Of a stretch of DNA of 64,000 nt, positions 23,543 to 40,551 are shown one piece after another. The stretch's first letter is position 1. Each line of letters begins with the position of its first letter. Origin of the DNA: Paracrocinitomix mangrovi (lineage in GTDB: Bacteria > Bacteroidota > Bacteroidia > Flavobacteriales_D > Crocinitomicaceae); the NCBI RefSeq assembly GCF_019740355.2, contig NZ_CP091819.1:1674001-1738000 (forward strand), given 5' to 3'. The notes under the pieces were generated by a model. That model worked only from the letters and a program-made list of their open reading frames with translations, was not told where the DNA came from and ran no database searches. A program made the translations under genes and the position numbers.

Positions 23543-24451
23543 ATGAAAAAATTAAGCTTTTTACTTTTCACCTTATTAGTCATCTCATCTGGATTTGCAC
23601 AAGAAACAGAAGTAGTTATTTCAAAAAAGGACTATGCAATATTTTCAAGTGAAACAGGCAAAAAAGCCAAACCTCAAGATATTGTGGATGAATTAAAAGA
23701 TGCTGACGTTATCTTTTTTGGAGAAGAGCACAATGATTCAATTGGACATCAATTACAATTGATGTTATTTAAATTGATGTTTGATTCTTATGGAGAAAAA
23801 GCAGTTTTATCAATGGAGATGTTTGACAGAGATGTTCAATACATCATGGATGAATACCTTCAAGGGCTAATCAAACAATCTTACTTTTTAAAAGACTCAA
23901 GAAAATGGAGTAATTACAAAGATTATGCTCCAATGGTTGAGTTTGCTAAGGAAAAAGGATTGGCTGTTATTTGTGCCAATGCTCCTTTCAGATATGTAAA
24001 TGTTGCCACAAAGCATGGTTTAGATGGCTTAATGAAATTATCAGAAAAAGCAAAAGAAGCATTGGCTCCACTACCCTATACCTTGGCAAGCGGAGCATAT
24101 AAAGCAAAATTGGATGCTTTGATGGGACACGATCCTTCAAATCCTGATTCAAAACCTTCTTATGATATGATTCCTGGTCAATCATTGTGGGATGCTACAA
24201 TGGCATATTCTATTTACCAAAAATTGCAGGCAAAGCCAGATTCAAAGATTTTACATTTAGTTGGAAGATTTCATGTAGATGAGCATTTTGGAATAGTTGA
24301 AAGGCTAAAGGAGTTTGATCCAAATATCAAAGTTGTTGTTGTTTCTTTAGACGGAAGTGCAGAAAACTTCCCAAAAGTTGACATCACAGAATACAAGAAA
24401 AATGGTGAATATTTGATTTTCAGTGATCCTGAAGTTCCAAAATCATATTAA
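23543..24451 (+). CDS. ChaN-family haem-binding-like protein
   Basis: 302 residues with a signal peptide (1-19, ending G-F-A-Q). The body matches the ChaN/Tiki family: A-D-V-I-F-F-G-E-E-H-N-D near residue 53, L-S-M-E-M-F-D-R-D-V-Q about 95, and V-G-R-F-H-V-D-E-H-F-G near 245. ChaN proteins bind haem in iron uptake, although related enzymes (Tiki, EreA) are hydrolases sharing the G-E-x-H motif, so an enzymatic role is not excluded. Monocistronic, followed by a strong terminator. Confidence 0.85.
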   Translation: MKKLSFLLFTLLVISSGFAQETEVVISKKDYAIFSSETGKKAKPQDIVDELKDADVIFFGEEHNDSIGHQLQLMLFKLMFDSYGEKAVLSMEMFDRDVQYIMDEYLQGLIKQSYFLKDSRKWSNYKDYAPMVEFAKEKGLAVICANAPFRYVNVATKHGLDGLMKLSEKAKEALAPLPYTLASGAYKAKLDALMGHDPSNPDSKPSYDMIPGQSLWDATMAYSIYQKLQAKPDSKILHLVGRFHVDEHFGIVERLKEFDPNIKVVVVSLDGSAENFPKVDITEYKKNGEYLIFSDPEVPKSY

Positions 24452-24540: not shown

Positions 24541-24571
24541 TTTGTAAATAAAAAAATCCATTATACCTTTG
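24541..24571 (+). promoter_or_regulatory. Promoter of the SAM-riboswitch/metH operon
   Basis: TTTG (24541-24544), 19-nt spacer, TACCTTTG (24564-24571): a textbook flavobacterial promoter. Transcription would start about 10 nt upstream of the aptamer P1 stem. Confidence 0.7.
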
Positions 24572-24587: not shown

Positions 24588-24716
24588 AAACTTATAAAGA
24601 AAGGTGGAGGGACCGGCCCTGTGAAACCTTGGCAACCTACCCGATCGAGAGCCCTCGGAATCAAAAGGATAAGGTGCCAATTCCTACTGAAGCTATTGCG
24701 GATGTAATATAAGTTG
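24588..24716 (+). ncRNA. SAM-I (S-box) riboswitch
   Basis: Recognised by sequence and structure: GGTGGAGGGACCGGCCC (24603-24619), then TGAAACCTTGGCAACC (24622-24637) and GGTGCCAATTCC (24673-24684) are the conserved S-box core. AACTTAT (24589-24595) pairs with ATAAGTT (24709-24715) as P1. It binds S-adenosylmethionine and represses the downstream methionine synthase genes. No terminator hairpin is visible before the ATG at 24755, so control may act on translation; CCGGTCC (24731-24737) is complementary to GGACCGG in the aptamer core (24610-24616) and could be the switching partner. Confidence 0.93.
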
Positions 24717-24754: not shown

Positions 24755-25741
24755 ATGGCGGATATTAGAGAAACATTGAAACACCGTATTCTAGTGCTAG
24801 ACGGAGCCATGGGAACCATGATTCAACGCTACAAACTGGATGAAGATGATTTTAGAAAAGGATGGTTTGAAGATCATGAAGCCAAATTAAAAGGCAACAA
24901 TGATGTATTGGTGTTGACGAGACCTGATATCATTAAAGAAATTCACGCAGCTTATTTAGATGCCGGAGCGGATATTGTTGAAACAAATACATTTGGTGCT
25001 ACCCGTGTTGCTCAGGCAGATTATCATTTAGAAGATGCTGTTTATGACATCAACTATCACGGAGCCAAAATAGCCCGTGAAGTTTGTGATGAATTCACTG
25101 CTAAAAACCCAGACAAACCAAGATTTGTTGCTGGGTCAATGGGACCAACTACAAAATTAGCTTCCATGTCTCCGGATGTAAATGATCCCGGTTTTAGAAA
25201 CATCACTTTTGAAGAATTAAAAGATGCTTTTAAAGAACAAGCCAAAGGATTAATTGAGGGTGGATCTGATTTATTGCTGGTGGAGACTGTAACAGACACA
25301 TTAAATGCCAAGGCCGCTCTTATGGCGATAAGCGAAATTCAAGAAGAATTGGGAACCAACTTGCCAATTATGGTTTCAGGAACCATTACAGATGCTAGTG
25401 GAAGAACATTATCCGGCCAAACTACTGAAGCATTTTTAATTTCCATTCAGCACATGGATCTTTTGAGCGTTGGATTAAACTGCGCTCTAGGAGCAAATGC
25501 TTTGAGACCTTATTTACAGGTATTAAAAAACAAAGCTCCTTTTTATGTATCTGCTCATCCAAATGCAGGACTTCCAAACGAAATGGGAGAATATGATGAA
25601 ACGCCCGAAAAAATGGCCGAACAAATCAACACATTTTTGGATGAAGGATTAGTAAACATTGTAGGTGGATGTTGTGGAACAACTCCAGAACACATCAAAG
25701 CAATGGTAGAATTAGTAAATCAAAAACAATTAAATAAATAA
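24755..25741 (+). CDS. metH: Methionine synthase, homocysteine-binding N-terminal subunit (split MetH)
   Basis: 328 residues covering only the first MetH module, a zinc-dependent homocysteine methyltransferase barrel. Marks: [10 protein letters not shown] near residue 16, E-T-N-T-F-G-A-T about 75, G-L-N-C-A-L-G about 240 (first Zn Cys) and [12 protein letters not shown] about 305 (Zn Cys pair). The remaining MetH modules are encoded separately 550 bp downstream. Placed directly after the SAM-I riboswitch. The clean stop and intervening gene argue for a genuine split rather than a frameshift. Confidence 0.93.
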
Positions 25742-25745
25742 TAGC

Positions 25746-26180
25746 ATGCCTAAACTTTGGAAAGAAATAGATAAAGAAATCTTAGTTGCCTTACCAAATC
25801 CAACTAAAGAAGCTTACGAAATCAAAGTTAAAATCCCGGAATTCACTTTTTTGGGTGTTCAAGAACAACCAGATTTCGCAACCGTATTTTTGACTTTTTA
25901 TCCGAAAGACAAAATCATTGAATTGAAATCTTTGAAACAGTATTCTTATCACTTAAGAGACATAGTTGTTTCTTATGAAAGATTAATCAACATTTTTTAT
26001 GATCAATTGATGGAAGTTTACGAACCGGAAAGATTGAGAATAACAATGGTTTGTAATCCTAGAGGTGGTATCAGTTCAAAATTGACAATTGATTCTGATT
26101 GGGCCGCACGTGGAGGAGAAGAGAAATTTAAAGACTGGGCTTCAACAGGAAATGAAGACACCTGGCAAGTTGTAATGTAA
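25746..26180 (+). CDS. QueF-like T-fold protein lacking the catalytic cysteine
   Basis: 144 residues. It follows the preQ0 reductase (QueF, short YkvM type) pattern: F-x-x-L then Q-P-D-F-A-T-V (Asp43), E-L-K-S-L-K-Q-Y (59-66), and N-P-R-G-G-I-S (104-110). However, where QueF has the active-site Cys that forms the thioimide with preQ0 (about 7 residues before the Asp) there is L36-G37, and the F-R-N-x-x-x-x-H-E substrate motif reads L-R-D-I-V-V-S-Y-E. The single Cys (103) is elsewhere. It is therefore unlikely to reduce preQ0. Four bp after metH-N, inside the SAM-controlled operon; a pterin- or folate-linked role in methionine synthesis is speculation. Confidence 0.7.
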   Translation: MPKLWKEIDKEILVALPNPTKEAYEIKVKIPEFTFLGVQEQPDFATVFLTFYPKDKIIELKSLKQYSYHLRDIVVSYERLINIFYDQLMEVYEPERLRITMVCNPRGGISSKLTIDSDWAARGGEEKFKDWASTGNEDTWQVVM

Positions 26181-26244: not shown

Positions 26245-26262
26245 TTCCGATAGCTATCGGAA
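26245..26262. repeat. 18-bp perfect palindrome TTCCGATAGCTATCGGAA
   Basis: Perfect palindrome in the 112-bp gap between the QueF-like gene and metH-C. It shares the CCGATAGCTATCGG centre with the 20-bp palindrome at 40522-40541. As RNA it would form a short stem inside the metH operon transcript. Confidence 0.7.
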
Positions 26263-26292: not shown

Positions 26293-28995
26293 ATGAGTAT
26301 ACATCCGGATTATAAAGGAAAGTACGAGTATAAATGGAGTGAATTACCTCCATTAAAATTGAGTGGATTAGAACCTTTGATCGTGACTCCTGAATCAAAT
26401 TTTGTCAATATTGGTGAAAGAACCAATGTTGCAGGGTCTCGTAAATTTTTGCGATTGATAAAGGAAGAACAATTTGATGATGCCCTATCCATAGCAAGAG
26501 ATCAAGTTGAAGGAGGCGCTCAGATTATTGATGTTAACATGGATGATGGTTTAATTGATGGTAAAGAAGCCATGGTTAAATTTCTGCATCTGGTTGCATC
26601 AGAACCTGACATTGCTCGTGTACCGGTAATGATTGACTCATCTAAATGGGAAATTATTGAAGCCGGATTACAATGTGTACAAGGAAAAAGTGTAGTTAAC
26701 TCTATTTCTCTGAAAGAAGGAGAAGAAGCTTTTATTTATCAAGCAAAAAAAATAAAACAATACGGTGCTGCCGTTATTGTTATGGCATTTGATGAAGAAG
26801 GTCAAGCGGATACTTACGAAAAGAGAATTCAAATGTGCGAAAGATCATATCGCATATTAGTTGACAAAGTCAAATTCCCCCCACAGGACATCATATTTGA
26901 CCCCAACGTTTTTCCTGTAGCTACAGGAATGGAAGAACACCGTAAAAATGCCTTGGACTTTTTTCAGGCAACCAGATGGATTCGTGAAAATTTACCCGGA
27001 GCACATGTAAGTGGAGGTATATCCAATGTTTCATTTTCATTCAGAGGTAACAATGTAGTGCGTGAAGCAATGCACTCAGCATTCTTGTTTCATGCTATTA
27101 ATGAAGGATTAGATATGGGAATTGTCAATCCAACTATGTTGGAAGTATATGATGACATTCCAAAAGATCTATTGGAACATGTTGAAGATGTCCTTTTAGA
27201 CAGGAGAGATGATGCCACTGAAAGGTTATTGGCTTTTGCAGAAACTGTTGCAGGAGATGTAAAAGAAAAGAAAGTTGACCTGGAATGGCGTAATCAATCA
27301 TTACAAGATAAAATCACACATGCCCTTGTAAAAGGAATTACGGATTTTATTGATGAAGATGTTGAAGCTGCAAGACATGAAGTTGAAAGACCAATTCAAG
27401 TAATTGAAGGTCATTTAATGAACGGAATGAATGTGGTAGGTGATTTGTTTGGATCAGGAAAAATGTTTTTACCCCAGGTTGTTAAATCTGCCAGGGTAAT
27501 GAAAAAAGCCGTCGCGTACCTACTGCCATACATTGAAGCCGAAAAAGAATCCGGCCAAACCAATGGAAAAGTATTGCTCGCTACTGTAAAAGGTGACGTG
27601 CATGACATTGGAAAAAATATAGTTGGTGTTGTTTTAGGTTGTAATAACTATGAAATCATTGATCTGGGAGTCATGGTTCCTGCTGAAAAGATTTTAGCTA
27701 CAGCTCAAGAGCAAAATGTAGATGTAATTGGATTGTCAGGATTAATTACTCCTTCATTAGATGAAATGGTACATGTGGCCAAAGAGATGGAAAGAATAGG
27801 CATGAACATCCCGCTCTTGATTGGTGGTGCCACAACTTCAAAAGTTCATACAGCCGTTAAAATTGATGAGAATTATACCAAAGGACAAACAGTTCATGTA
27901 TTGGATGCATCAAGATCCGTTACTGTAGTAGGAAGTTTATTAGGGGAACAAAAAGACAATTTTGTTAGCAATGTCAAAGAAGATTATCAGAAAGTAAGAG
28001 AAAACTACGCTAAAAAGAAAGATTTTAAGAAGTTCTTATCGCTTGAAGATGCTAGAAAGAACAAGTTTGATATTAACTGGAAAGCTGAGGATATTGCCAA
28101 ACCAAATTTAATTGGAACACAATCATTTGAAAATTATTCAATTGAAGAATTAAGAGATTACATTGATTGGACACCCTTCTTTTACACCTGGGAAATGCGT
28201 AAAAAATATCCAGATATTTTAACGGATGAAAATTTGGGTCAAGAAGCCAGTAAATTATTCCATGATGCCCAAAAGATGTTGGATCAAATCATTGCTGAAA
28301 AATGGTTAGAAGCCAGAGCAGTTATTGGAATTTGGCCGGCTAACACCATCAATGATGACGATATTGAAATTCAATTAGAAGGCAAAAAACATATTCAATA
28401 TGGAATGCGTCAGCAATTGCACAAATCTGAAAAAGCAAGTAATGTTTGTGTATCAGATTTTGTAGCACCCAAGGAATCCGGGATTCAAGATTATGTTGGA
28501 GGATTTGTGGTTACTGCCGGAATAGGAATTGAGAAAAAACTTGCTGAATTTGAGGCAGATCATGATGATTATCACGCAATCCTTTTAAAAGCATTGGCAG
28601 ATAGATTAGCTGAAGCCTTAGCAGAACGCATGCATGAAAGAGTAAGACAAGAATTCTGGGGATATGAAACAGATAAATTGTCAAATGAAGATTTGATTAA
28701 AGAAAAATACCGTGGTATCAGACCTGCACCAGGTTACCCGGCAAATCCTGACCATACTGAGAAAGAAGGATTGTTTGAAATACTAGATGCAACTCAATTA
28801 ACAGGCGTTTCTTTAACCGAATCTATGGCTATGTTACCTACAGCATCTGTAAGTGGCTGGTATTTTGCACACCCTGAATCACATTATTTTGGTGTTGGAA
28901 AAATTAAAATGGATCAAGTAGAGAGTTTAGCTAAAAGAAAAGGCAAAGCGGTTGATGAAATGAAAAAATGGTTGAATCCAAATTTGGATGAATAA
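26293..28995 (+). CDS. metH: Methionine synthase, folate/B12/activation subunit (split MetH)
   Basis: 900 residues covering the remaining modules: pterin-binding barrel (about 30-320; [11 protein letters not shown] at 41, I-D-V-N-M-D-D-G at 80), B12 cap and Rossmann domains (about 340-580; [11 protein letters not shown], whose His is the cobalt ligand, near 435; G-L-S-G-L-I-T-P-S about 480), and the SAM-dependent reactivation domain (about 600-900; R[11 protein letters not shown] near 815). It transfers methyl from methyl-THF via cobalamin to homocysteine held by the separate N-terminal subunit. Same strand and riboswitch as that subunit. Confidence 0.95.
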
Positions 28996-40487: not shown

Positions 40488-40551
40488 CCCAGACATTGAA
40501 AAGGTTTTGTACCTGAGGCCGGTCCCGATAGCTATCGGGACGAACCGGCAC
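40488..40551 (-). pseudogene. tRNA-Leu 3' fragment with palindrome in the T-loop
   Basis: 40488-40522 repeats 40575-40609 (terminator loop plus tRNA 3' acceptor strand) at an 87-bp offset with few mismatches, and CGAACCGGCAC (40541-40551) repeats 40613-40623. Between them the intact gene has AAT, whereas the fragment has an 18-nt palindromic insert (40523-40540). The D-arm, anticodon arm and 5' acceptor strand are missing, so this is a non-functional partial copy. Confidence 0.8.
40522..40541. repeat. 20-bp perfect palindrome GTCCCGATAGCTATCGGGAC
   Basis: Perfect palindrome sitting where the T-loop of the tRNA-Leu fragment should be. Same centre as 26245-26262 and same arms as 14546-14561, which marks it as a member of a dispersed family in this genome. 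Confidence 0.8.

Follow-up and report, generated by a model that had tools for sequence, protein, structure and literature searches.

In QueF, a cysteine forms a thioimide with the substrate, a glutamate anchors that substrate and the QueF motif binds NADPH, as set out in the accessible part of PMC5372742. There, Cys55/194, Asp62/201 and Glu97/234 together with the NADPH motif are the defining residues, and sequences lacking the Cys, Asp, Glu or motif were treated as non-QueF; the role of the Asp as general acid/base is described in the accessible parts of PMC5485725 and PMC5372742.

The reduction of methylene-tetrahydropterins follows a common logic. In three kinds of methylene-tetrahydropterin reductases, a glutamate activates the substrate to an N5-iminium cation, which then accepts a hydride (PMC11094777, accessible part). 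Besides the flavoprotein MetF, a further solution for methylene-THF reduction is the TIM-barrel enzyme Mfr of mycobacteria (accessible parts of PMC11094777 and PMC13001107). The literature search, which took in few subscription papers and no bioRxiv preprints, found no link of QueF-type proteins to methionine or methylene-THF metabolism, so that one may have been reported elsewhere; the titles and abstract openings of PMC6593275, PMC10570037 and PMC6368324 hold no such link.

This study examines a gene in a 64,000-nucleotide stretch of the Paracrocinitomix mangrovi genome (the window). The gene, at 25746-26180 (+), encodes a QueF-like T-fold protein of 144 aa that matches PF14489 and has no catalytic cysteine. 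We consider it fairly likely that its product is a T-fold reductase that has moved out of queuosine biosynthesis, makes 5-methyl-THF for methionine synthase and displaces the flavoprotein MetF.

The split metH operon

According to ORF coordinates, the gene starts 4 bases past the stop of metH1 (24755..25741, +; 328 aa), which encodes the homocysteine S-methyltransferase half of a split MetH (PF02574, S-methyl_trans, 346.2 bits). It is followed by metH2 (26293..28995, +; 900 aa), which supplies the methyl-THF-binding, cobalamin-binding and activation domains; the Pfam matches comprise Pterin_bind (PF00809, 199.6 bits), two B12-binding domains (PF02607, 86.2 bits; PF02310, 72.4 bits) and the activation domain (PF02965, 405.7 bits). 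A SAM riboswitch aptamer (RF00162) lies ahead of metH1 at 24589..24715 (+; cmscan 77.1 bits, E 2.2e-16). The description of the locus in the first-pass annotation, as a split metH operon under SAM-riboswitch control, is thus borne out by the aptamer score, the domains of both metH halves and the 4-bp spacing.

A possible promoter at 24541..24571 (+), consisting of TTTG, 19 bp and TACCTTTG (TANNTTTG), was read by eye against the Bacteroidota-type consensus, a type outside that of the sigma-70 scan. Upstream of the operon, a ChaN-like haem-binding protein is encoded at 23543-24448 (PF04187, 190.5 bits). The perfect palindrome CCGATAGCTATCGG occurs twice in the window, at 26247-26260 and 40525-40538, and in none of 100 shuffles. 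The first copy sits between the gene under study and metH2, where the surrounding stretch folds mildly better than shuffled sequence (z -1.8); among 147 loci compared, the palindrome is found only in the one that is the window's own DNA (L001) and in none of the 146 others. Given this mild folding and restriction to a single locus, the palindrome was set aside as evidence.

A QueF-type family without the catalytic cysteine

The window protein scores 59.8 bits against Pfam QueF (PF14489; cut-off 27.3), the only Pfam family that it matches at E 0.001; there is no match to the MetF family (PF02219). Against NCBIfam QueF-II (TIGR03139) it reaches 83.8 bits, just under the cut-off of 86.9. Each of the 81 aligned family members hits TIGR03139 with an E-value of at most 0.001, and the best E-value among them implies, by our inference, a score above the naming cut-off. 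Copies at two loci (L113 and L132) were missed by ORF picking and were included via tblastn and alignment. Among solved structures, the closest in sequence are three B. subtilis-type QueF entries (E about 1e-15). The gene under study is the sole QueF-family match in its genome, which therefore holds no canonical QueF.

In the alignment, the column of the thioimide Cys (Cys55 of B. subtilis QueF) is a gap in 81/81 family members and holds Cys in 30/30 canonical QueFs. Gly occupies the column beside it; in the window, the adjoining residue is Gly37 (codon 25854..25856, +). With so uniform a gap, the loss is not a matter of chance. The first-pass annotation had called the protein Cys-less and QueF-like, and both the Pfam score and this alignment agree; an orthologue with an intact Cys, which would have spoken against its interpretation, does not occur among the 81 members.

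Other active-site residues are retained. Asp43 (codon 25872..25874, +), equivalent to the QueF general acid/base Asp62, and Glu78 (codon 25977..25979, +), equivalent to the substrate-anchoring Glu97, are invariant in all 81 members and all 30 canonical sequences. The same is true of E59, K64 and Y66 in the QueF/NADPH-binding motif E59-L-K-S-L-K-Q-Y66 (25920..25943, +). This motif, ELKSLKQY, matches E(S/L)K(S/A)hK(L/Y)(Y/F/W) apart from Q at the (L/Y) position, at which some Cys-bearing canonical QueFs also deviate (e.g. ELKSYKFY). With the Cys gone and the Asp, Glu and motif residues kept, the family retains the apparatus for binding and hydride transfer without the nucleophile. The residue preceding Glu78 had been singled out as Y-E in place of H-E; Tyr is indeed found in 81/81 members, but it is not diagnostic, since canonical QueFs mostly have F (10), H (8) or Y (8) among 30 at this position.

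The family also has its own C-terminal tail, DSDWxxRGGxE...DW...DxWxV (26091..26177, +; alignment of 81 members). D116-W119, R122-G124, W131 and W140 are invariant in all 81; the 30 canonical QueFs are gapped at the columns of R122, G123, G124, W131 and W140 in 30, 29, 29, 17 and 30 cases, respectively. In a quick tree built from few columns, to which a long-branch warning applies, one branch parts the 81 members from the 30 canonical QueFs with an SH-aLRT of 100. By sequence, then, the gene under study belongs to a distinct Cys-less QueF-type family. Family membership, the residues kept and lost, the operons, the riboswitches and the inverse distribution with metF are direct observations.

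The AlphaFold model of the window protein (mean pLDDT 81.6; low confidence from residue 132) predicts a T-fold. It superimposes on QueF 4fgc with a VIA Z of 14.4 and an rmsd of 3.2 over 128 residues at 25% identity; Z is 14.0 against GTP cyclohydrolase I and 9.7 against dihydroneopterin aldolase.

Distribution and gene neighbourhoods

Within the order sample, an orthologue is present in 14 of 299 genomes at 75-100% identity (own copy counted), and no other QueF in those genomes matched the window protein as query. In all 14 carriers the gene lies between metH1 and metH2. In one of them (G232; L005, also L078) metH1 is matched for only about 33 residues beside an intact metH2, owing to either a truncated metH1 or an assembly gap.

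A scan of a genome collection returned 162 relatives, and the best 80 of these (L061-L140, 71-89% identity) were used; they come from Bacteroidota, Gammaproteobacteria, Deltaproteobacteria and one bin titled Chlorobiota. One locus titled Saccharospirillaceae, of the Gammaproteobacteria (L086, CATLPG010000006.1), has a gene that groups with those of Crocinitomicaceae and carries their operon; it is probably a mislabelled bin. The order metH1-gene-metH2, with all genes co-directional, is found at 35 of the 80 loci (L078 with its short metH1 match), and two more (L064, L075) are cut or overlapping cases of it. In five, metH lies on the opposite, divergent strand; in the four of these with ORFs listed (L110, L120, L125, L136) it is full-length, at 1222-1258 aa. 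At the remaining 38 loci, the sequence retrieved, which is short in some cases, contains no metH. In ten of these 38, the gene is immediately preceded by a co-directional thyX (L108, L109, L113, L116, L124, L127, L128, L131, L133, L139; Pfam Thy1 confirmed for three), and at L135 the gene is flanked by those for a Cys/Met PLP enzyme and for homoserine dehydrogenase, with a SAM riboswitch in front. For other lone copies, such as that of Carboxylicivirga or one opposite riboflavin synthase, the neighbours give no clear link.

Among 12 loci scanned, a SAM riboswitch lies upstream of each of the ten metH1-gene-metH2 operons; L135 is the only one of 14 loci without metH to have one. A second scan of 14 loci gave one, before the divergent metH of L136, and none at the divergent metH of L110, L120 or L125.

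These contexts bear on the proposal in the first-pass annotation that the protein is a non-catalytic pterin- or folate-binding accessory of the split methionine synthase. In favour of such an accessory, 35 of 80 loci place the gene between the metH halves, and in the window 4 bp separate it from metH1. On the other side, the gene also stands beside full-length metH, or has no metH nearby (38/80 loci); 11 of 50 further carriers give no match to PF02965, the MetH activation domain (the completeness of those genomes is not given); and one genome, G181, has split metH1-metH2 genes, 37 bp apart, without the gene. Constant company of the Cys-less form and split metH, which that annotation had suggested checking, does not hold, as divergent full-length metH, thyX and lone loci all occur, and the frequent location outside methionine operons that had been named as evidence against an accessory was found. 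An accessory would, moreover, leave both the invariant acid and NADPH-motif residues and the absence of metF (see below) unexplained, so that we regard this role as improbable. Of the first-pass idea, the link to folate and methionine stands, through the metH operons, the SAM-riboswitch operon of L135, thyX and the frequent absence of metF; the part that made the protein an accessory of the split enzyme does not.

The largely kept NADPH motif and the metH operons would also suit an NADPH-dependent partner for the reductive reactivation of cobalamin-dependent MetH. The carriers without a match to the activation domain and the copies behind thyX led us to reject such a reactivase; the gene is, besides, present in only 12 of the 229 order-sample genomes that have the activation domain, and the absence of metF would again be left without explanation. 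A reactivation role is accordingly very improbable.

Relationship to queuosine biosynthesis

A Cys-independent QueF that still makes preQ1 for queuosine would be consistent with the match of all 81 members to TIGR03139. QueC makes preQ0, the substrate of QueF, and full-length QueC is present in 21 of 67 carriers tested. This count takes in matches of at least 235 bits; 62 of the 67 matched at E 0.001 and 51 exceeded the cut-off, and the matches left out score at most 63 bits and are mostly local, within longer frames. None of the 14 order carriers has a full-length QueC. All that the window genome offers is a local match of 28 bits, which covers positions 5-71 of 210 and falls within a frame of 655 aa. 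The strongest QueC-like signal among the 14 is a 191-aa frame (G232:C50:4435-4947) with two pieces of 63 and 35 bits.

Outside the order, full-length QueC is found in four of the 24 metF-less carriers and is missing from the other 20. As the window genome has neither a canonical QueF nor a full-length QueC, a queuosine role is unlikely here, and a queuosine enzyme was rejected as the function of the gene. For the family as a whole, many of the adjacent genes belong to methionine or folate metabolism, and the missing Cys is a published defining residue of QueF (PMC5372742, accessible part); taken together, these points make a surviving preQ1 synthase scarcely credible.

Frequent absence of metF from carriers

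The presence of metF was counted by matches to PF02219, which leaves Mfr-type enzymes and MetE outside the counts; PF02219 does not detect the Mfr family according to the accessible part of PMC7857596. The window genome, a single contig that is 99.97% complete, has no PF02219 match. In the order sample, metF is absent from 12 of the 14 carriers and present in 214 of the 285 non-carriers. Among the sampled genomes with a MetH activation domain, metF is absent from 10/12 carriers versus 7/217 non-carriers (Fisher p 1.4e-11, shared ancestry ignored). Carriers G017 and G037 are left out of this set, their metH2 running off the contig end, and the seven metF-less non-carriers are assemblies of 60-95% completeness.

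A gammaproteobacterial order sample repeats the pattern on a smaller scale. Here four of 99 genomes are carriers, all with the Cys-less form (three weaker matches are canonical), and three of the four have metH next door on the divergent strand. Typical metF, taken as PF02219 above 250 bits, is found in none of the four versus 68 of 95 others (p 0.008; Fisher, kinship ignored). PF02219 is matched in 72 of the 99 genomes; the 68 typical cases remain once two carriers, whose PF02219 proteins are divergent (106-113 bits), and two genomes with sub-threshold matches alone are subtracted. Two Gammaproteobacteria outside this sample (L125, L138) are carriers with typical metF, of 285 and 338 bits.

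Several loci suggest an exchange of one gene for the other. Within one genus, metF is present without the gene in G181, and the gene without metF in G033, G171, G232 and G278. In carrier G696 (gene at L081; metF at L148, G696:C3), all that there is of metF is a set of fragments, spread over three frames and containing stops. Against three intact metF proteins the fragments reach 41-52% identity and are thus more diverged than those proteins, for which the value between the groups compared is 64-68%; the identity for the window's own family is 80-83%. The G696 metF has apparently decayed, an assembly error being the other possible cause. In a Cytophagales group, the order metH2-metF-HMGL-CitMHS at L102 stands beside metH2-HMGL (L097) and metH2-CitMHS (L098, L100) in genomes without metF, which suggests that metF may have been lost from the spot behind metH2. 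The non-carriers G071, G164 and G235 also have metF directly behind metH2. Over the gene tree, the presence of metF changes at least eight times.

Fifty further carriers, from among the 80 genomes that were the best of 162, were tested for metF, metH and folA with no matched non-carrier set: 20 have metH without metF, 19 have both, seven have metF without PF02965 and four have neither. This gives a metF match in 26 of the 50, 25 of them apparently intact, as in two of the 14 order carriers. Cultured carriers in which metF was not found include Pleionea sediminis (L120) and Crocinitomix algicola (L061). At L084, L099 and L102, metF and the gene share one operon; next to the metH1-gene-metH2-metF operon of Marinoscillum lies a further PF02219 protein of divergent sequence (92.9 bits; L099 10145-11074, -; G706:C19). 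Such coexistence may be an intermediate stage or the sign of a different task.

A different task could be that of another NADPH-dependent folate or pterin reductase, e.g. a dihydrofolate reductase, with the absence of metF being incidental. Seven Deltaproteobacteria/Syntrophorhabdaceae carriers (G714, G718, G721, G728, G731, G733, G735) point in this direction: they have a PF02219 match, neither folA nor PF02965, and the gene directly behind thyX. The lack of a folA match in all seven thyX-upstream genomes tested is a possible lead on the DHFR question in thyX organisms. Where metF is missing, the picture is the opposite, with folA present in 13 of the 14 order carriers and, outside the order, in 19 of the 24 carriers that lack metF. 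The missing enzyme is hence metF and not DHFR, and a DHFR role in metF-less genomes was rejected; as a general account of the family, a different folate or pterin reductase seems unlikely.

Proposed function and mechanism

The methylene-THF reductase reading draws its main support from the scarcity of metF in the carriers of both order samples. The swap within the genus of G181, the seemingly decayed metF of G696 and the Cytophagales gene orders point the same way, as do the independent contexts: divergent metH, the SAM-riboswitch operon of L135 and thyX in ten loci. The invariant Asp, Glu and NADPH-motif residues in a family that has lost the Cys throughout, and the lack of full-length QueC in the window genome, add to this. 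The reading is weakened by the metF matches in 26 of 50 further and two of 14 order carriers and by the three shared operons, by the typical metF of L125 and L138 and the two divergent PF02219 proteins in gammaproteobacterial carriers, and by the many lone copies without an informative neighbour. The seven folA-less carriers with thyX and a PF02219 match weaken it too, since a different folate reductase would also account for them.

Substrate, cofactor use, oligomer, mechanism and direction of replacement are deduced from the conserved residues and from genomics. A T-fold oligomer would bind 5,10-methylene-THF, with Glu78 anchoring the pterin. Asp43 would protonate N10, so that the imidazolidine ring opens to give the N5-iminium cation, a role that falls to Glu28 in the MetF of E. 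coli and to Glu9 in Mfr. Held via the QueF motif, NADPH would pass its hydride straight to the carbon of the iminium without a flavin. This step would resemble the later reduction in QueF, in which an NADPH hydride is likewise transferred to a C=N bond. An iminium reduction requires no covalent thioimide, which would account for the missing Cys. At the level of expression, the SAM riboswitch presumably lowers operon output when SAM is plentiful.

In evolutionary terms, the chances are slightly better than even that the family constitutes a new class of methylene-THF reductase: flavin-free, NADPH-dependent, of about 140 residues, arisen from QueF by loss of the Cys, annotated 'preQ1 synthase' and having displaced MetF in lineages from no fewer than two phyla, Bacteroidota and Pseudomonadota. 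If so, methylene-THF reduction would gain a solution on an unrelated fold, the T-fold, and bacteria that have methionine synthase yet no MetF would be accounted for. The 'preQ1 synthase' annotation would need correction, and the family would exemplify the loss of a catalytic Cys as a nitrile reductase turns into an iminium reductase.

Comparison with known systems

Unimodular QueF (preQ1 synthase, B. subtilis type) has in common with the window family the T-fold, the Asp, the Glu and most of the NADPH motif. The family differs from it by the lack of the thioimide Cys in 81/81 members, its own C-terminal tail, its methionine and folate operons, the lack of full-length QueC in the window genome and a fully supported branch apart from the 30 canonical sequences. 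GTP cyclohydrolase I and dihydroneopterin aldolase also combine a T-fold with a purine or pterin ligand, but they catalyse other reactions and are not known to have a QueF motif.

Mfr, the flavin-independent mycobacterial enzyme, is a longer protein than the window protein; it is set apart from the window family by description and not by sequence comparison. For both, the proposed chemistry passes through an N5-iminium cation that takes up the hydride directly, whereas Mfr is a (beta/alpha)8 barrel (PMC11094777, accessible part).

QueF-Like (QueF-L), the crenarchaeal archaeosine synthase, offers a parallel as a T-fold enzyme derived from QueF with new chemistry (Z 14.0 to 5jyx). Unlike the window family, QueF-L keeps the Cys, and it acts on preQ0-tRNA with ammonia (PMC5485725, accessible part). 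MetF, the FAD-dependent methylene-THF reductase (PF02219), would share with the window protein the proposed reaction and the place in the pathway. The two differ in architecture: MetF is a TIM barrel with FAD (PMC13001107, accessible part), whereas in Pfam the window protein matched no family but QueF.
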